Assembly (NCBI GenBank): GCA_019752015.1
Contig: JAIEMQ010000052.1
Location: 1 to 64,000, forward strand
From: Cyanobacteriota bacterium
GTDB taxonomy: Bacteria; Acidobacteriota; Vicinamibacteria; Vicinamibacterales; UBA2999
Length of the DNA: 64,000 nt
Direction: 5' to 3'
Each line of letters opens with the position of its first letter. Position 1 is the first letter of the stretch. A model generated the notes under the pieces. That model had not been told where the DNA came from, ran no database searches, and saw nothing but the letters and a program-made list of their open reading frames with translations. Below are positions 14,983-21,921 of the stretch, piece by piece. The position numbers were made by a program, and so were the translations under genes.

Positions 14983-15837
14983 TTACGGATTCGTCCCTGC
15001 GGCCGTTCCCCTTGTCCGGGGAAAACATGCGCCCTTCAGGGGGCAGCGCGAGTCTCCCGTTTTCTTCCCGTATCCGCAGGCGTTCATCATGCCGAGGTGG
15101 CAGATCGAGAAGTCGAACTTGATAGGGTCGACGGGATCGATCGCGCGCAAGGAGGCGGTGATGTCGGCCGCCATGCGCCAGCCTGGACTCTTCAGCTTCG
15201 TCAGCCGCAAGCACTGGCCGACGCGGATGATGTGCGTATCGAGCGGCACGATCAACTGGCCGGGCCTGACCTTTTTCCACACGCCGAGATCGACGCGATC
15301 TTCACGCACCATCCAGCGCAGGAACAGGTTGAGCCGCTTGCATGCGCCGCCGGACGAGGGGCGCGAGAAAAAATAGGCGACGCCCGGCTTCGGCCGCTTG
15401 CGGCCATACACCGCGGACACATCGAGCGCGAGCGCGCGTGTCGAGAAGGATTGGAGCGCGGCGCCGACATCGACCGCATCGTCCGCCAATCCCTCGGCGA
15501 AGAAATTTTCGATCGATCCACTGCGATCGATCATCTGCTTCATGATCCACACCAGCGCCGCGAAGTCGGCGCCGTTCGTCCAGCGGTGCACGAGAGGCTT
15601 GAAGCACTCGCGATCGCGCGCCGGCGTGAAATCGCGCACGAATGCGGCCGGCGACTGGCCCATCACCTTCAACATGCCCTCGATTGAATTGATCACACTC
15701 TGGACGCGGCCGAACGCGAGGGCTGACGCAATGAAGGCCACGACTTCCTGGTCCTCGGGCCGCTCGTGGCGATGCACCATCCACACCGGATCGGTCACCG
15801 ATTGGCCGGCATTGAATTCCGAGTAGAGTGTGTCCAA
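14983..15837 (-). CDS. TIGR02757 family (DUF2400) protein
   Basis: A protein of about 284 residues of unknown function, conserved in many bacteria. Recognisable blocks are DPVWMVHRHERPEDQEVVAF, the WKKVRPGQLIVPLDTHIIRV segment that resembles a helix-hairpin-helix glycosylase core, and a C-terminal Cys cluster (SICHLGMMNAC ... CPLKGAC) laid out like the [4Fe-4S] loop of endonuclease III. This suggests an Fe-S nucleic-acid or repair protein, but that is inference. The TTG at 15837 is proposed as start because homology begins just after it; upstream in-frame sequence overlaps the divergent gene and is not conserved. Confidence 0.72.
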   Translation of the reverse strand: MDTLYSEFNAGQSVTDPVWMVHRHERPEDQEVVAFIASALAFGRVQSVINSIEGMLKVMGQSPAAFVRDFTPARDRECFKPLVHRWTNGADFAALVWIMKQMIDRSGSIENFFAEGLADDAVDVGAALQSFSTRALALDVSAVYGRKRPKPGVAYFFSRPSSGGACKRLNLFLRWMVREDRVDLGVWKKVRPGQLIVPLDTHIIRVGQCLRLTKLKSPGWRMAADITASLRAIDPVDPIKFDFSICHLGMMNACGYGKKTGDSRCPLKGACFPRTRGTAAGTNP

Positions 15838-18061
15838 CCCGGACCGAAGGATGAGACTCGACTTATTCCTGATCAGCTTTCTCACGCTGTTTCTCGAGCT
15901 TACCTGCATTCGCTGGTTTCCATCCCACGTCCTGTTCCTGACCTTCTTCACCAACACCGTGCTGCTGGCATCGATCCTCGGCATCTCGGCCGGCTGCCTC
16001 GCCGCGAATCGCAAGAGCAACCTGCTGCTGTGGACGCCGCTGATTCTGGTGATCGGACTCGGCAGCGCGCACTTCGTCGAGTGGCAGCGGCAGGCGTCAC
16101 AAAGTGTGATCGACGTCGGCAACCAGGCGTCGCCGCAAATGGTGTTCTTCGGCGTCGAGTACCAGGCGCGCGACCTTTCGAGCTTCGTGATTCCGATCGA
16201 AGCCATCTGCGGCTACTTCTTCCTGGTCATCGCGCTGGCGATGATGGGACCCGGCCAGCAGCTTGGCCGCGCCCTGGCGCGGATGTCGGACCGTCTCGAG
16301 GCCTACACCATCGACATCCTCGGCAGCATTGCCGGGATCATCGCGTTCGCGGCGTGCTCGTTCCTCGAGCTGCCGCCGACGTGGTGGTTCGCGGTCGTGA
16401 TGGCTGGGGTCGCCTATTTTCTACGCTCGCTCGCCTGGCCGGCGATGCTTCGAATGGCGGCGCCGGCCGCGGCCGTGCTGCTGATGGCGAGCGGCGCCTG
16501 GTTCGCGGGATTCGGGGAACAATGGTCGCCGTACTACCGCGTCACCTACATGCGTGACCAGGGGCTGATCAATGTCAATTTGATCGGGCATCAACAGATG
16601 CAGCCCCTGAGCGCGCCATTCCCTGCGTACGCGCTGCCGCATTTGCTCAATCGTGATGCCGGCAGCGCTCCGTTTGGCGACGTGTTGATCATCGGCGCCG
16701 GATCGGGCAACGACGTCAGCCGCGCGCTGGCGTGGGGCGCGGAGCGCGTCGATGCGGTCGAGATCGATCCCGTCATTCAGCGGATCGGCAAGCAAGACCA
16801 TCCCAATCGTCCATACGACGATCCTCGCGTCACCGTCCACCTCAACGACGGCCGCAATTTTCTCAAGTCCGGCGACAAGCAGTACGACCTGATCATCTAC
16901 GCGCTGGTCGATTCGCTGGTGCTGCACAGCAGTTACAGCAACATCCGGCTCGAGAGTTACCTGTTTACGAAACAAGCCGTTTCCGACGTGCGCCGCCGGC
17001 TCAAACCCGGCGGCGTCTTCGTCATGTACAACTACTTCAGGCAGGGATGGATCGTCTCCCGGCTCCAGAACTCGGTGCGCGCCGCGTTCGGCGCCGACGC
17101 GCTCATCCTCAATCTGCCCAGTCGAGATACGCTCGACGCCGACGAGAATCTCGAAAACAGCTTCACCATGTTCATCGCCGGCAACCACACCGCCATCGGC
17201 AACGCCTTTGCGCGCCGGCCGGCGTATTGGCTCAATACGAGCGCCGCGCTCGACTGGAATGCGCCGAACGGATTTCGGGACGAGGCGCCGCCCGGGGCGG
17301 GCGCGAGCGAGTGGCAACAGTTCCGGCTCACCACGCTCAGGGCCGGTAACGAACCGCCGCGGCTCGCCACCGACGACTGGCCAATGCTCTACCTCCGCGA
17401 GCCGATGATTCCGGGCGTCAGTTTGCGCGGCGCCGCGATCATGGCGGTGCTCGCGATCCTGCTGCTCGCACCTTTCATGCGCCGAACCACCGCACCATCC
17501 ACGCAACCCGCGGGACTGCTACTCCAGATGTTCTTCCTCGGCGCCGGCTTCATGCTGATCGAGACCAAGGCGGTCGTGCACATGGCGCTGCTGTTCGGCG
17601 GCACGTGGATCGTGAACTCGGTCGTGATCTTCGCGGTCCTGGTGATGATCCTGATCGCCAACCTGTTCGTGGCGATCGTGCGTCCCGCGCGGCTGGCCTT
17701 CTACTACGCGGCGCTGCTGGCATCGCTGATCGTCAGCGCGCTCGTGCCGATGGACACGTTCCTCGGGATGGATCGCACGGCACAGATTGCGGCCGCGTCG
17801 GTGCTCGCGTTCACGCCGATCTTCTTCGCCGGCGTCGTGTTCGCGGTCTCGTTCACGCGCGCGGTTGAACCCGATCGCGCCTTCGGCGCCAATATCGCGG
17901 GCGCGATGTTCGGCGGCCTTGCCGAATACAGCTCGATGCTGCTCGGATTCCAGTACCTGCTCTTCGTCGCGGTCGCGCTCTATGTCATTTCGATCTTCGG
18001 CTATCAGAAAGCCGTGATCGGAATGCCGGCGTCGCACATCGGGCAGGAGCCGGCCGCGTAG
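15830..18061 (+). CDS. Multi-spanning membrane protein with spermidine-synthase-like domain
   Basis: A 743-residue protein in three parts: about seven N-terminal TM helices (LFLISFLTLFLELTCIRW at the start), a methyltransferase-fold spermidine-synthase-like domain near residues 280-420 (VLIIGAGSGNDVSRALAWGA with the nucleotide loop, then VDAVEIDPVIQRIG and HLNDGRNFLKS), and about six C-terminal TM helices. Similar fusions are widespread in soil bacteria; their substrate is not established and they need not make spermidine. The GTG at 15830 is the listed start; the ATG at 15851 is nearly as good. The start region overlaps that of the divergent TIGR02757 gene, and its 3' end overlaps pyrE by 58 bases. 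Confidence 0.8.
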   Translation: MSNPDRRMRLDLFLISFLTLFLELTCIRWFPSHVLFLTFFTNTVLLASILGISAGCLAANRKSNLLLWTPLILVIGLGSAHFVEWQRQASQSVIDVGNQASPQMVFFGVEYQARDLSSFVIPIEAICGYFFLVIALAMMGPGQQLGRALARMSDRLEAYTIDILGSIAGIIAFAACSFLELPPTWWFAVVMAGVAYFLRSLAWPAMLRMAAPAAAVLLMASGAWFAGFGEQWSPYYRVTYMRDQGLINVNLIGHQQMQPLSAPFPAYALPHLLNRDAGSAPFGDVLIIGAGSGNDVSRALAWGAERVDAVEIDPVIQRIGKQDHPNRPYDDPRVTVHLNDGRNFLKSGDKQYDLIIYALVDSLVLHSSYSNIRLESYLFTKQAVSDVRRRLKPGGVFVMYNYFRQGWIVSRLQNSVRAAFGADALILNLPSRDTLDADENLENSFTMFIAGNHTAIGNAFARRPAYWLNTSAALDWNAPNGFRDEAPPGAGASEWQQFRLTTLRAGNEPPRLATDDWPMLYLREPMIPGVSLRGAAIMAVLAILLLAPFMRRTTAPSTQPAGLLLQMFFLGAGFMLIETKAVVHMALLFGGTWIVNSVVIFAVLVMILIANLFVAIVRPARLAFYYAALLASLIVSALVPMDTFLGMDRTAQIAAASVLAFTPIFFAGVVFAVSFTRAVEPDRAFGANIAGAMFGGLAEYSSMLLGFQYLLFVAVALYVISIFGYQKAVIGMPASHIGQEPAA

Positions 18062-18642
18062 TTCGGCGGCGCCTTGTATTCGACCAGCGTGACGTTGGGC
18101 ACGTCGAGCATCACGCACGCCTCGCAGCGATCGATGATTTGCATCGTGCCAATCACCACACCCCCGGCGGCGCTCACCAGATCCGCGCATCGCTTGAAGG
18201 TTGTCCCCGTATTCCGGACATCGTCCATGATCAGGACGCGCTTGCCTTTCATGCGTGATGCGTAGAACGGGCTGAGCAGCGGCAGTCCCTCGTATTCGCT
18301 GAACGGCGCGAATGAGTATGGCTGGCGAGTCATTGGCCGGCGGCCGTCGAGCAGTCCCGCCACGGTGTGCGCCAGCAACGCGCCGCCGGTGGCAGGACCG
18401 GCAACAATCTCCGCCTGGTCGACGAAATCCGGCGGCATCACGTCGATCAGATCCTGCGCCACCCGCCAGATCGTCGACGGATATTGGAACAGCTGGTGGG
18501 GATTCAGATAGAGCTTGCCGTGAAAGCCGTTGCCGTAATCGAAGTGTCCGTCCATCACCACTTCGAAGCGCCGCAGGTCCTCGAACGCGCGCGCCCGCAC
18601 CTGATCGTGACGCGCGTTGCCGGCTGCCAGTTGTGTTGTCAT
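18004..18642 (-). CDS. pyrE: Orotate phosphoribosyltransferase-like protein
   Basis: A 212-residue type I phosphoribosyltransferase. The PRPP-binding motif VLIMDDVRNTGTTF is complete, and EIVAGPATGGALLAHTVAG matches the orotate branch. An unusual C-terminus, CPMCDAGIPITAF, carries a CxxC pair that relatives in this subfamily share. Its position as last gene of pyrR-pyrB-pyrC makes orotate plus PRPP to OMP the natural role; no other pyrE candidate is present in the window. The last 58 bases overlap, tail to tail, the membrane spermidine-synthase-like gene. A hairpin lies directly upstream, between it and pyrC. Confidence 0.82.
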   Translation of the reverse strand: MTTQLAAGNARHDQVRARAFEDLRRFEVVMDGHFDYGNGFHGKLYLNPHQLFQYPSTIWRVAQDLIDVMPPDFVDQAEIVAGPATGGALLAHTVAGLLDGRRPMTRQPYSFAPFSEYEGLPLLSPFYASRMKGKRVLIMDDVRNTGTTFKRCADLVSAAGGVVIGTMQIIDRCEACVMLDVPNVTLVEYKAPPNYAAGSCPMCDAGIPITAF

Positions 18643-18651
18643 GTTTTCCTC

Positions 18652-18673
18652 AGGCGGGTCTAAAGACCCGCCT
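18652..18673. repeat. Hairpin between pyrC and pyrE
   Basis: Perfect 9-base arms AGGCGGGTC and GACCCGCCT around a TAAA loop. The pyrC stop codon (TAG, complement of 18660-18662) falls in the stem-loop, and the last residues of PyrC (VEAGL) are encoded by it. It may set the relative expression of pyrE, or simply be a dispersed repeat. Confidence 0.8.
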
Positions 18674-19967
18674 CTACTTTGGGGTTCCTGTAGACGACTT
18701 TTCCGCCGACGATGGTTGCGGCCACTCCGCCCTTGAACGACCAGCCGTGATACGGAGTGTTCTTCGACTTGCTGACGAGCTTCGCCTTATCGATCGTCAC
18801 GGCCAGATCCGGTGCGAGGATCGTGATGTCAGCCGGCGCGCCGGGCGACAGCGTGCCGCCGGGCACGCGCAGGATCTTCGCGGGGTTCACCGACATCAGC
18901 TCCACCATCCGCGGCAGCCCGATCACGCCGGCGTGCACCAGCTTGTCGAGCGTGATCGAGATCGCGGTCTCGAGTCCGACGATGCCGAAGGGAGCCCGAT
19001 CGAATTCAACGTTCTTCTCGTCGTAGTGATGCGGCGCATGGTCGGTTGAGATCACGTCGACCGTGCCGTCCTTGATGCCGGCGATCATCGCATCGACATC
19101 GCGCTGCTCGCGCAGCGGCGGGTTCATCTTGGCGTTGGTATCGTAGGCAATCGGCGACTGGAGCAGGTCGTCGGTCAGCGTGAAGTGATGCGGGCAGACC
19201 TCGCACGTCACCTTGACGCCGCGGCTCTTGCCCTGCCGCACCGCCTCGATCGTCGGCCACGCGCTCATGTGCGCAATGTGCACGTGCCCGCCCGTCATTT
19301 CCGCCAGCAGGATGTCGCGGCCCGCCGTGATTGCTTCGGCGACGCCGGGGATGCCGCGCAGGCCGAGTGACGCGGCGATCGGTCCTTCATGCGCGACACC
19401 GTCGCCCTTGAGCGATTGATCCTCGCAGTGCTCGATCATCGGCATGTTGAACATGCTGGTGTATTCGAGCGCGCGGCGCGCGAGGATCGCCGTCGCCACC
19501 GGCAATCCGTCGTCCGTGACCGCCACGCAACCGGCTTCCTTGAGCTCCGCGATGTCGGCAAGCTCCTCGCCCTTTTGTCCGCGTGACACGGCGCCGATCG
19601 GATACACGCGCGCCAGGCCCGCTTCCTTTGCCTTCTGCAGAATCAACTGCGTGACGCCGGCGTTGTCGTTGACCGGCTTCGTATTCGGCATGCATGCGAC
19701 GGCGGTGAATCCGCCCGCAACCGCCGATGCCACACCCGTCGCCACCGTTTCCTTGTGCTCCTGTCCCGGCTCGCGCAGGTGCACATGCATGTCGATGAAG
19801 CCCGGACACACGATCAATCCCGCCGGCACGTTGACGATCTCGGCGCCGTCCGCCTTCAAGCCCGTGCCGACCTCGGCGATCCGATCGCCGTCGATCAGCA
19901 CATCGAAAATGCCGTCCTTGCCGTTGGCCGGGTCGACGACCCGTCCGCCCCTAAGCAACCGTTTCAT
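18660..19967 (-). CDS. pyrC: Dihydroorotase
   Basis: A 435-residue class I dihydroorotase of the amidohydrolase superfamily, which closes N-carbamoyl-aspartate to dihydroorotate. Metal and substrate motifs are intact: [19 protein letters not shown] near residue 60, Asp in CVAVTDDG near 155, His in [11 protein letters not shown] near 180, HIAHMSAW near 235 and ISTDHAPHH near 310. The start at 19967 overlaps the pyrB stop by 17 bases, a sign of translational coupling. The alternative upstream start lies further into pyrB. Confidence 0.93.
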
Positions 19968-20931
19968 GTTCCGTCCCACCAGCAAGGAGATAGAGCACCG
20001 CCATTCGCACCGCCACTCCGTTTGCGACCTGATCGAGGATTACCGACGCCGATCCGTCCGCGACTTCCGACGCGATCTCCACGCCGCGGTTGATCGGGCC
20101 GGGGTGCATGATGATCGCGTCCGGCTTGGCGCGCTTGACGCGCGCTTCGGTCATGCCGAAGGTCGTGAAGTATTCACGCAGCGAAGGAAAGTAGCCGCCC
20201 TGCATCCGTTCCAGCTGCATTCGCAGCATCATGATCACGTCGGCGCCCTCGACCGCTTCGTCGACGTTCGTCGTGACGCGCACGCCCATCTGCTGCATGC
20301 CGACGGGAATCAACGTCGCCGGCGCACACACCCACACCTCGGCCCCGAGCTTCGTCAGCAGCAGCACATTCGACCGCAGCACGCGGCTGTGCAGCAGGTC
20401 GCCGACGATGGCGACTTTCAATCCTTTGAGTTTGCCCTTGCGCTCGCGAATCGTGAAGGCATCGAGCAGCGCCTGCGTTGGGTGCTCGTGCATGCCGTCA
20501 CCGGCGTTGACGATCGCCGCCTTGCAGATGCGCGACAGCAGGTGACACGCGCCCGACGAGGCATGGCGCAGCACGATCATGCTGGGCGACATGGCCTCGA
20601 GGTTCATCGCCGTATCGACGAGCGTCTCGCCTTTGACGACGCTCGACGACGCAATCGCGACGTTGAGCGTATCGGCGCTGAGCCGCTTCTCGGCGATCTC
20701 GAACGACGTGCGCGTGCGCGTGCTCGGCTCGAAGAACAGGTTGATGACGGTGCGGCCGCGCAGCGTCGGCACTTTCTTGATGGTGCGGCGGCCGACTTCC
20801 TTCATCGCCTCGGCGGTGTCGAGAATCAGCACGATCTCTTCCGCGCTGAGGTCGGCAATGCCGAGCAGGTGCTTGTGTTTCAGCTCGGTGAGCGGCGGCG
20901 CCGCCGGTGCGTCGTTGCGGGCAACGTCCAT
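19951..20931 (-). CDS. pyrB: Aspartate carbamoyltransferase catalytic chain
   Basis: A 326-residue catalytic chain that joins carbamoyl phosphate and aspartate. The carbamoyl-phosphate motif [13 protein letters not shown] is at residues 63-75, [12 protein letters not shown] near 155 and [12 protein letters not shown] near 285. N-terminal extension of about 15 residues before [14 protein letters not shown] is common. No regulatory chain (pyrI) is present, as expected when pyrR is the regulator. Three bases separate it from pyrR. Confidence 0.95.
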
Positions 20932-20934
20932 CGC

Positions 20935-21471
20935 TCACGCCTTTCCTTGCAGAACGACTTCGTCGATGCCATCGAGCTCGCGCAGCTTGACCTGCACGCT
21001 CTCCTGCCGCGACGTCGGCACGTTCTTGCCGACGTAATCCGCCTTGATCGGCAGCTCGCGGTGGCCGCGATCGACGAGGGCGACGAGTTGAATCGATTTC
21101 GGCCGGCCGAAATCCGTCAGCGCATCGAGCGCCGCGCGCGTCGTTCTGCCGGTATAGAGAACGTCGTCGACGAGCACGATCGTGCGGCCGTCGATCGAGA
21201 ACGGTATCTCGGTTTTGCGGACCAGCGGTTTGATGCCCGCTGACGCACCCATGATGTCGTCGCGATAGAGCGTGATGTCGAGCGCGCCGACGCCGATTTC
21301 CTCGCCGGAAATCTTGCGCAGGTCGTCCGCAATGCGCTGCGCGATCGGCACACCACGGCTGCGGACGCCAACGAGCGCTAAATCGGAAAGACCGCGGTTA
21401 TGTTCGAGGATTTCGTGCGCGATTCGCGTGAGCGCGCGAGAGATGCGCTCCGCATCCATGACGACTGGCAT
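20935..21471 (-). CDS. pyrR: Bifunctional pyr operon regulator and uracil phosphoribosyltransferase
   Basis: A 178-residue Pyr[18 protein letters not shown] near residue 10, the specific [13 protein letters not shown], and the PRPP loop [18 protein letters not shown] near residue 95. PyrR binds UMP-dependently to a stem-loop in pyr mRNA and lowers expression; it also has weak uracil phosphoribosyltransferase activity. It is first in the operon and has a matching RNA hairpin in its own leader (21478-21513). The start at 21471 has AAAGAGGG seven bases upstream. Confidence 0.94.
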
Positions 21472-21477
21472 TGATAC

Positions 21478-21513
21478 CCTCTTTGCGGACTCTCAGGTCC
21501 GCGTTTAAAGAGA
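21478..21513 (-). promoter_or_regulatory. Candidate PyrR-binding loop overlapping the pyrR ribosome binding site
   Basis: As minus-strand RNA this segment folds into a lower stem UCUCUUU/AAAGAGG (7 pairs, one G-U), a 4-nt 5' bulge AAAC, an upper stem GCGGAC/GUCCGC and the hexaloop CUGAGA. The hexaloop fits the CNGNGA consensus of PyrR-binding loops, which also have an A-rich 5' bulge. The 3' side of the lower stem is the Shine-Dalgarno sequence of pyrR, so bound PyrR would stabilise the stem and block translation, as described for mycobacterial pyrR. The stop codon of the preceding gene lies in the bulge region. Confidence 0.65.
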
Positions 21514-21921
21514 CTGACGGATTATAACACGCCGCTTTGCCGTCTTCTTGAGCGGCGGATCCGCGCATTTCAGCGCTGCTTTCATCAGCGCCTTCACGGC
21601 GGGCCTGTCCAAATCGTCGGCGCTATTGATACGGATGTGCCGGACCATTGCGCCGGAGCCCTGGAGCAGGTGCTCCGGATCGTCGAGCGCGTCGCCTTCG
21701 AAGAAATAGAGATTGATCCATTTTCGATAGACCGCGATCGAATTGATGACATTCGAGGGACGCTCGTCCGGGCAAAACCCGATCACGAGAGAATTTTTCT
21801 TGTCGTAGACCATCTCGATCGCGCCGGGAAAACGCGGCCGCAGCTTCGCGAGCACCGCCCTGGTCAGCTTCGCCATCTCCGGCGGCTGCTTGGCGATGAT
21901 GCGATCGAGATCGCTCTTCAC
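21505..21921 (-). CDS. DUF1801-type protein (YdhG/YjbR-like fold)
   Basis: A 138-residue soluble protein. The segments FPGAIEMVYDKKNSLVIGFC and SIAVYRKWINLYFFEG are typical of the DUF1801/YdhG family, whose function is not known; structures show a small alpha/beta fold related to frataxin-like or CyaY-type scaffolds in some members. The GTG start at 21921 overlaps the amidase stop by four bases (GTGA), so it is translated with the amidase. The basic C-terminus (PLKKTAKRRVIIRQSL) ends inside the pyrR leader hairpin. Confidence 0.7.
   Translation of the reverse strand: MKSDLDRIIAKQPPEMAKLTRAVLAKLRPRFPGAIEMVYDKKNSLVIGFCPDERPSNVINSIAVYRKWINLYFFEGDALDDPEHLLQGSGAMVRHIRINSADDLDRPAVKALMKAALKCADPPLKKTAKRRVIIRQSL

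Follow-up and report, generated by a model that had tools for sequence, protein, structure and literature searches.

We have found that the hairpin at 21478-21513 on the minus strand of the DNA analysed here (64,000 nucleotides, hereafter the window) is, with high probability, a PyrR-binding loop that doubles as a translation-initiation operator. We establish how this hairpin folds, that it covaries and is linked to pyrR and pyrC, that it has a promoter-like spacing and no terminator-like site, and that folding models pair the Shine-Dalgarno sequence. In Gram-positive bacteria PyrR is familiar chiefly as a protein of attenuation; across the order studied here, which belongs to a phylum of Gram-negative type (Acidobacteriota), it seems to work as a translational operator. 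The window copy alone is another case of the kind known from Mycobacterium smegmatis; what seems new is the order-wide form in which the loop covers the start of a leader ORF.

Structure of the hairpin and the pyr operon

Read from 21513 to 21478, the minus-strand RNA is UCUCUUUAAACGCGGACCUGAGAGUCCGCAAAGAGG. The 5' arm of the lower stem, CUCUUU (21507-21512), is followed by the 5' bulge AAAC (21503-21506), the 5' arm of the upper stem GCGGAC (21497-21502), the hexaloop CUGAGA (21491-21496), which fits CNGNGA, and the 3' arm of the upper stem GUCCGC (21485-21490). The 3' arm of the lower stem, with which CUCUUU pairs, is the Shine-Dalgarno sequence of pyrR, AAAGAGG (21478-21484), 6 nt from the ATG at 21471. 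The earlier note on this DNA had described the hairpin, and its arms, bulge and hexaloop are present as described, with the Shine-Dalgarno sequence as the 3' strand of the lower stem. It had counted seven pairs in the lower stem; the stem exists, with six pairs, and the seventh (U21513-G21478) forms in the longer folds only and is not conserved among relatives. A pattern for the 16S 3' end gave no match in this genome and so did not confirm its anti-Shine-Dalgarno sequence.

The isolated 36-mer folds at -15.1 kcal/mol with a z-score of -3.86, and 0/200 shuffled sequences fold as well. With 50 nt of context the z-score is -2.64 (4/200 shuffles as good) and within 111 nt it is -1.76 (11/200), so the fold becomes less exceptional in longer context; the hairpin is present in every minimum-energy fold at these three lengths. 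In the folding model, the lower stem of the window contributes -2.8 kcal/mol and the upper stem alone -10.8 kcal/mol, close to the medians of 119 leaders of the order (-2.8 and -10 kcal/mol). This combination of a weak lower stem and a strong upper stem suits a protein clamp. The Shine-Dalgarno sequence is unpaired to 1% in the window and to a median of 19% in the 119 leaders by the same model. Accordingly, the RNA fold alone already masks the Shine-Dalgarno sequence in the model, and part of the repression could be independent of PyrR.

The hairpin precedes four genes on the minus strand. The first, as the earlier note had stated, is pyrR (20935-21471), which encodes a genuine PyrR as judged by the NCBIfam PyrR equivalog (250 bits); the best-scoring solved chains are PyrR 1ufr and 1non, and the protein, the predicted regulator, looks intact from its sequence. 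It is followed after 3 nt by pyrB for aspartate carbamoyltransferase (19951-20931), by pyrC for dihydroorotase (18660-19967), which overlaps pyrB by 17 nt, and, 17 nt after pyrC, by a phosphoribosyltransferase gene (18004-18642) whose product is orotate phosphoribosyltransferase-like and scores under the family cut-off. The upstream neighbour on the same strand is a DUF1801 gene (21505-21921), which is not part of the device and whose stop codon lies inside the hairpin (CUUUAA).

Similarity to PyrR-binding loops and covariation

The hairpin shows the features of a PyrR-binding loop, namely a CNGNGA hexaloop, a GC-rich upper stem, a 5' bulge, a lower stem and a position in the leader of a pyr operon. 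The Rfam PyrR model RF00515, which presumably was not built from these sequences, matched it with 28.6 bits (E 0.047 in a 401-base search), and in a search of the whole genome (5.9 Mb) it was the only match at E<=10 (E 0.166). The alignment spans the bulge and lower stem of the hairpin and skips 71 positions downstream of the loop. The gathering cut-off of this 115-position model (54 bits) was missed because the terminator half of the model is absent here. We also built a covariance model (R1) from 40 equal-length hairpins of the order, in which the window hairpin is one seed row; in its own genome this seed row scored 55.6 bits, and the runner-up site 16.0. The hairpin is thus beyond chance.

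Covariation was counted in an alignment (A2) of 40 equal-length hairpins of the order, from which hairpins of other lengths had been dropped before the pair counts. In the upper stem, 5/6 pairs have changed on both sides, and 95.8% of the cells pair. The covariation score was 0.281 against a shuffled mean of 0.115, 0/500 shuffles were as high, and structures slid along the alignment reached at most 0.078. The lower stem is near-invariant and contributes no covariation evidence. Within CNGNGA, the C, G, G and A are invariant in 40/40 sequences, and the N positions vary. Compensatory changes in the upper stem around a fixed CNGNGA are what the earlier note had anticipated from related pyrR leaders, and together with the RF00515 alignment and the adjoining pyrR they bear out its assignment of a PyrR-binding-loop architecture, including the hexaloop motif.

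Promoter-like element and terminator search

Upstream of the hairpin lies the -10-like element TGTTATAAT, with the box TATAAT (21521-21526, minus strand) and an extended TGT (21527-21529); the end of the box is separated from the lower stem by 8 nt. In the leaders of the order, the 3-30 nt before the lower stem were searched for the best -10-like hexamer, and the distance from its end to the stem was 7-10 nt in 99/119, a figure that has no null for comparison. A scan with a two-hexamer consensus found no promoter. From the spacing of the -10-like box, the transcript is predicted to start at about the first base of the hairpin.

A terminator scan found no terminator-like site at 20900-21700 in the window, in agreement with the claim that the loop has no terminator partner. 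The distance from the end of the upper stem to the ATG is 13 nt, which leaves no room for a terminator upstream of pyrR.

Distribution among relatives

With the window's own genome included in every count, pyrR matches were obtained in 39/40 near genomes and 180/199 genomes of the phylum (E<=1e-20) and in 133/149 genomes of the order (E<=1e-40). Model R1 matched in 129/149 order genomes at E<=0.05. At this threshold the loop is found in 128/133 pyrR-bearing order genomes, as judged by comparing coordinates by eye; 127 of these genomes have it on the pyrR contig, no more than about 350 nt upstream of the gene, and in the remaining one, G299, one contig ends at the loop and another at pyrR. Among the 16 order genomes that gave no pyrR match, 15 have no loop, and G302 has a partial match of 19.5 bits. 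A member of the window's genus (G002, 98% complete) has neither pyrR nor the loop. Many of the order genomes are incomplete MAGs, and the large search had stricter filters that lose weak matches.

Five of the 133 pyrR-bearing order genomes gave no loop match. In two of them the cause is an assembly gap, with a run of N upstream of pyrR in G307 and pyrR at a contig edge in G277. The other three (G244, G309 and G311) belong to genus g153 and have no loop match anywhere in the genome at E<=0.05. Apparent loss of the hairpin where pyrR is kept, which the earlier note had named as counter-evidence, was found in this one genus, and the loop is kept in the large majority of the pyrR-bearing genomes. 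As a side observation, the PyrR of genus g153 (L210, L212, L299 and L315-L317) departs from two residues that are conserved elsewhere, R39 and N150. We considered R39 as a marker of loop loss and dropped it, since three of the four other proteins with G39 (L105, L121 and L126) have a nearby RF00515 match; the fourth, L115, has none.

The second kind of counter-evidence named there, the same hairpin at many non-pyr sites, did not appear. Every additional R1 match of at least 40 bits off the main leader lies before pyrC (G003 and G005), at a second pyrR start (G313) or at the contig edge mentioned above (G299). In G005 the second loop precedes an open pyrC 9.5 kb from pyrR and is followed by a 19-codon ORF, read from the sequence, whose stop overlaps the pyrC ATG. 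The second pyrR start of G313 has a loop and a leader ORF. Among weaker matches, one of 26.7 bits (G148:C69) is not a pyr leader as read. There were 17 R1 matches of 19-23 bits away from pyrR in the order genomes, among them one of 23.4 bits at G264:C111 and 15 of 19-21 bits, and the only one of these that was read (G004:C15, 20.7 bits) lies inside an unrelated, non-pyr gene.

Some further variation was seen among the relatives. In G003 (L246, G003:C26), a second, decayed pyrC follows a PyrR loop that has a leader ORF of its own, beside a full-length pyrC that follows pyrB in the pyr operon. Family f11 (G034, G229, G237 and G260; L025, L147, L149 and L159) keeps the loop with the 3' arm AAGATC or AAGAAC, by which the Shine-Dalgarno sequence is gone in this family, a point against the operator. 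Five members of the window's genus (L004 and L006-L009; G003 and G005-G008) have, by eye, an extra GCGGAG/CTCCGC hairpin that follows the -10-like box and immediately precedes the PyrR loop; its 3' arm could compete with the upper stem of the loop; this hairpin is absent from the window.

Leader ORFs in the order

We scanned 134 leaders of the order, of which the leader finder scored 119 well and 15 as weak or absent. Since the finder favours CNGNGA, the presence of this motif in 119/119 is partly selection, and alignment A2 and the model matches are the better evidence. Of the remaining 15, nine have an R1 match just upstream of pyrR (G009, G015, G027, G189, G241, G234, G039, G314 and G305), G016 was judged by eye, and five are without a loop or cut (G307, G299, G309, G244 and G311).

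The 119 leaders take two forms. Direct leaders, a class defined by a spacing of at most 16 nt, number 32/119, and the start of AAGAG lies 10-15 nt from the pyrR ATG in 32/32 of them, a spacing that suits initiation. The window, which has no leader ORF, is of this form. In 87/119 leaders the loop lies further upstream; two of these 87 are in-frame N-terminal extensions of pyrR, which were later counted as direct, and in 85/119 the loop is too far upstream for pyrR's own start. A leader ORF is present in 81/87. It starts 8-17 nt after the start of AAGA, with ATG preferred, else GTG, else TTG, and ends between -8 and +16 relative to the pyrR start, with 56 of the 81 ends at +13 and 15 at +10. These ORFs have 11-103 codons (median 38). 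Four of the 87, all from genus g164, have no start codon in the 8-17 nt range. The claim that the hairpin sequesters the Shine-Dalgarno sequence of pyrR itself accordingly holds for the window, but in most of the order leaders examined it is that of the leader ORF which is covered.

Most leader ORFs use a common reading frame. In 79/83 scored leaders they share one frame, against a mean of 19.9 and a maximum of 31 of 83 when interiors were shuffled and the frame was random, and a mean of 53.8 and a maximum of 62 of 83 when interiors were shuffled with the frame kept (200 runs). The leader peptides differ freely among the matches listed, and it therefore seems that the act of translation is conserved rather than the peptide. 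PyrR in these relatives would act via translational coupling, as judged from the overlap of the two reading frames. A Shine-Dalgarno-like tetramer stands just before pyrR in 60/85 leader-ORF leaders; pyrR there might also start independently, which speaks against strict coupling.

The stop codon of the leader ORF is mostly supplied by pyrR codons 3-5 in the +1 frame. Such a +1 stop occurs in the first 16 nt of pyrR in 82/85 leader-ORF leaders versus 8/34 direct leaders (p 4e-16, ignoring relatedness), and for stops in the other frame there is nothing (3/85 versus 0/34). Met5 is preceded by GTG or GTA in 69/80 leader-ORF versus 4/33 direct leaders, a count that leaves out 6 rows lacking the motif and whose p-values ignore relatedness. 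By family, the corresponding fractions for leader-ORF and direct leaders are 4/9 versus 0/18 in f1, 16/18 versus 0/2 in f5, 19/21 versus 0/1 in f8, 3/3 versus 4/9 in f10 and 5/5 versus 0/3 in f74; the separation by this codon alone is less clean in f1 and f10.

A PyrR tree with 40 rows from the order requires no fewer than 5 changes of architecture, 4 of which are forced by well-supported branches. The 4 independent supported pairs differ on average in the expected way in 3.7 cases and show no difference in 0.3, with hardly any in the opposite direction; the pairs test of the +1 stop signature gave a median p of 0.125, 4 pairs being too few for significance. The window's genus is direct, and its neighbours on the tree are leader-ORF lineages; some of the branches concerned have weak support. 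On this placement, the direct form may have been derived within the window's family.

The composition of the leaders was compared in 79 leader-ORF leaders of at least 60 nt with enough flank. In the stretch from the loop to pyrR, C exceeds G in 72/79 (mean C 38.7%, G 25.9%), while the same holds for 40/79 upstream flanks and, over the initial 70 nt of pyrR, for 19/79 (paired Wilcoxon p below 1e-12). A T run of six was found in 0/85 leader-ORF leaders and a T run of five in 2/85. Two rho genes, both full-length and both scoring over the family cut-off, are present in the window's genome (G000:C6:39568-40803 and G000:C5:57253-58494).

Loops in other classes of the phylum

Outside the order, 162 genomes have a pyrR match, and 58 leaders from these were examined. 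A PyrR loop with a T run was found in 13/58; in 6/58 a loop whose 3' arm contains AAGGAG lies no more than 45 nt from pyrR; and in 39/58 the finder, which misses some, reported none. The leader of G183 (L050) looks like a loop with a T run, yet it was counted as none. RF00515 matched at E<=0.01 in 17/199 phylum genomes, and 16 of these matches adjoin pyrR.

Nine of the 13 leaders with a loop and T run have an ATG or GTG ORF that begins 8-17 nt after AAGR and extends beyond the point where the T run begins, a count made without a null. In L045, the ORF that crosses the T run stands behind a second Shine-Dalgarno-like AGGAGG. L049 and L286 have an 8-codon ORF that ends before the T run, and in L042 and L264 every start codon in range is TTG. 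Taking these leaders together with those of the order, PyrR may gate whichever ORF follows the loop, with the purine arm serving as its Shine-Dalgarno sequence, and what the gated ORF acts on may differ, being a terminator, a coupled pyrR start or pyrR itself. The RF00515 consensus already has an AAGG arm, which would ease a change to a Shine-Dalgarno sequence; the order of these events in evolution is our inference.

Discussion

Considering the position of the -10-like box, transcription in the window would begin at the base of the hairpin. With ample UMP, PyrR in its UMP-bound state would grip the CNGNGA hexaloop and the upper stem and would clamp the weak lower stem (about -2.8 kcal/mol), by which AAAGAGG would be hidden and neither pyrR nor the pyrB, pyrC and phosphoribosyltransferase genes packed tightly behind it would be translated. 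When UMP is scarce, PyrR would release the RNA, the lower stem would breathe and ribosomes would enter. PyrR binding, the dependence on UMP and the effect on translation are predictions from the sequence features described above, and we consider that the earlier note is very likely right on the function of the hairpin.

Other explanations of the hairpin should be weighed against this operator. PyrR could bind the loop with the fate of the transcript as its main output, in that the block of translation triggers an attack by RNase or Rho on the naked 5' region. The position of the hairpin at the predicted extreme 5' end, the C-rich and G-poor leaders of the leader-ORF relatives, with flanks that are not so, and the two rho genes of the genome are in line with it; the direct form of the window, however, has no C-rich leader, and we regard this reading as rather unlikely. 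For most of the order, we put forward a related proposal only tentatively: PyrR would gate a variable leader ORF that leads into pyrR, and when this ORF is silenced, its exposed C-rich, G-poor leader would recruit Rho. Leaders that are C-rich and free of T runs would permit control by Rho, and they fit a loading of Rho that is shielded by translation; the composition could instead simply keep the leader unstructured. If the proposal is true, PyrR controls pyr transcription through Rho in these bacteria, and one loop has been rewired among intrinsic termination that is coupled to the ribosome, coupling through a leader ORF, in which Rho may or may not take part, and plain occlusion of a Shine-Dalgarno sequence.

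The pairing of the Shine-Dalgarno sequence by the RNA alone in folding models would also be expected of a 5' hairpin that works without any protein, either as a stability element or as a temperature-sensitive mask. Such a mask needs no fixed CNGNGA, yet its four defined bases are invariant throughout A2, and the element tracks pyrR and pyrC and matches RF00515, so that we hold this to be very unlikely. Classical PyrR attenuation with a missed downstream terminator is more improbable still: PyrR loops with T-run terminators do occur in other Acidobacteriota (the 13/58 above), but no terminator-like site was found at 20900-21700, only 13 nt separate the upper stem from the ATG, and no T run of six occurs in the 85 leader-ORF relatives. 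Finally, a chance inverted repeat or a by-product of the coding end of DUF1801, whose TAA lies within the 5' arm and bulge, is refuted by conservation and can practically be dismissed, as the CTCTTTAA arm and the covarying stem recur in relatives where the sequence further upstream is unrelated by eye, and the hairpin is unique in its genome.

The PyrR-binding operator in the window can be compared with known systems. In M. smegmatis, PyrR reportedly represses the pyr operon at the level of translation, as Fields and Switzer are said to have described in 2007. That system is reported to have, like the window, a PyrR loop that lacks terminator and antiterminator and lies over the ribosome-binding site with which the pyr operon begins, and by these features the window element is probably to be placed with the M. 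smegmatis type of repression. Unlike it, the present case is from another phylum, the loop stands at the predicted 5' end of the transcript, and among the order leaders examined it is mostly a leader ORF whose site is covered. With the PyrR attenuators of Bacillus subtilis described by RF00515, the element shares CNGNGA, the GC upper stem, the 5' bulge after CUUU(U)AA, the purine-rich AAGR 3' arm and the location in a pyr leader. It differs in that no terminator was found, the score is under the cut-off and the AAGR arm is the Shine-Dalgarno sequence, and it is not an RF00515 attenuator.

For Thermus ZO5, a ribosome-coupled PyrR attenuation with a leader-translation model is said to have been proposed by Van de Casteele et al. 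in 1997. In that model PyrR decides on the translation of a leader, and the leaders of some other Acidobacteriota in which an ORF crosses the T run resemble it; the window and the order, on the other hand, show no terminator, and the leader ORF of the order, where present, overlaps pyrR. The earlier note had called translational control by PyrR mainly mycobacterial; M. smegmatis is the nearest type, but given the model reported for Thermus, mycobacteria are not the sole precedent.

Two other systems resemble the leader-ORF form of the relatives. The RNA-binding protein CsrA is reported to block the initiation of a short upstream ORF whose stop overlaps the iraD start, and to repress iraD by translational coupling (PMC5574718). 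The likeness lies in a stop that overlaps or adjoins the next start, as in 81/87 order leaders with an upstream loop; the difference lies in the protein and in that the relatives, not the window, would show autoregulation of the regulator's own operon. In Mycobacterium tuberculosis, a leader ORF stands under the control of the ppe2 B12 riboswitch, a 5' RNA sensor, and the downstream gene is reportedly reached by termination-reinitiation (PMC11260477). Its sensor is a metabolite-sensing RNA, unlike the protein-binding loop here. We recognised no description of PyrR with an overlapping leader ORF among the matches listed; the subscription literature lies largely outside them, and this is no proof of novelty.

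The PyrR site thus appears in three different settings within one phylum. The leader-ORF form makes exact and cheaply testable predictions on how regulatory RNAs change mechanism while keeping the same ligand. Elements of this kind stay unseen because the Rfam PyrR model includes the terminator half, and its cut-off was reached in 0/199 genomes of the phylum sample.

Two minor observations concern the neighbouring genes of the window. The DUF1801 stop codon lies at 21505-21507 within the hairpin, and ribosomes that end there on a read-through transcript might open the hairpin and bypass PyrR. At the other end of the operon, a plus-strand ORF (15830-18061) with weak similarity to spermidine synthase overlaps the tail of the phosphoribosyltransferase gene by 58 nt. 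In G003, G005 and G008, a gene of the same direction directly follows the phosphoribosyltransferase gene and by eye resembles the window ORF at 14983-16206; accordingly, the plus-strand ORF looks like an insertion in the window's lineage.
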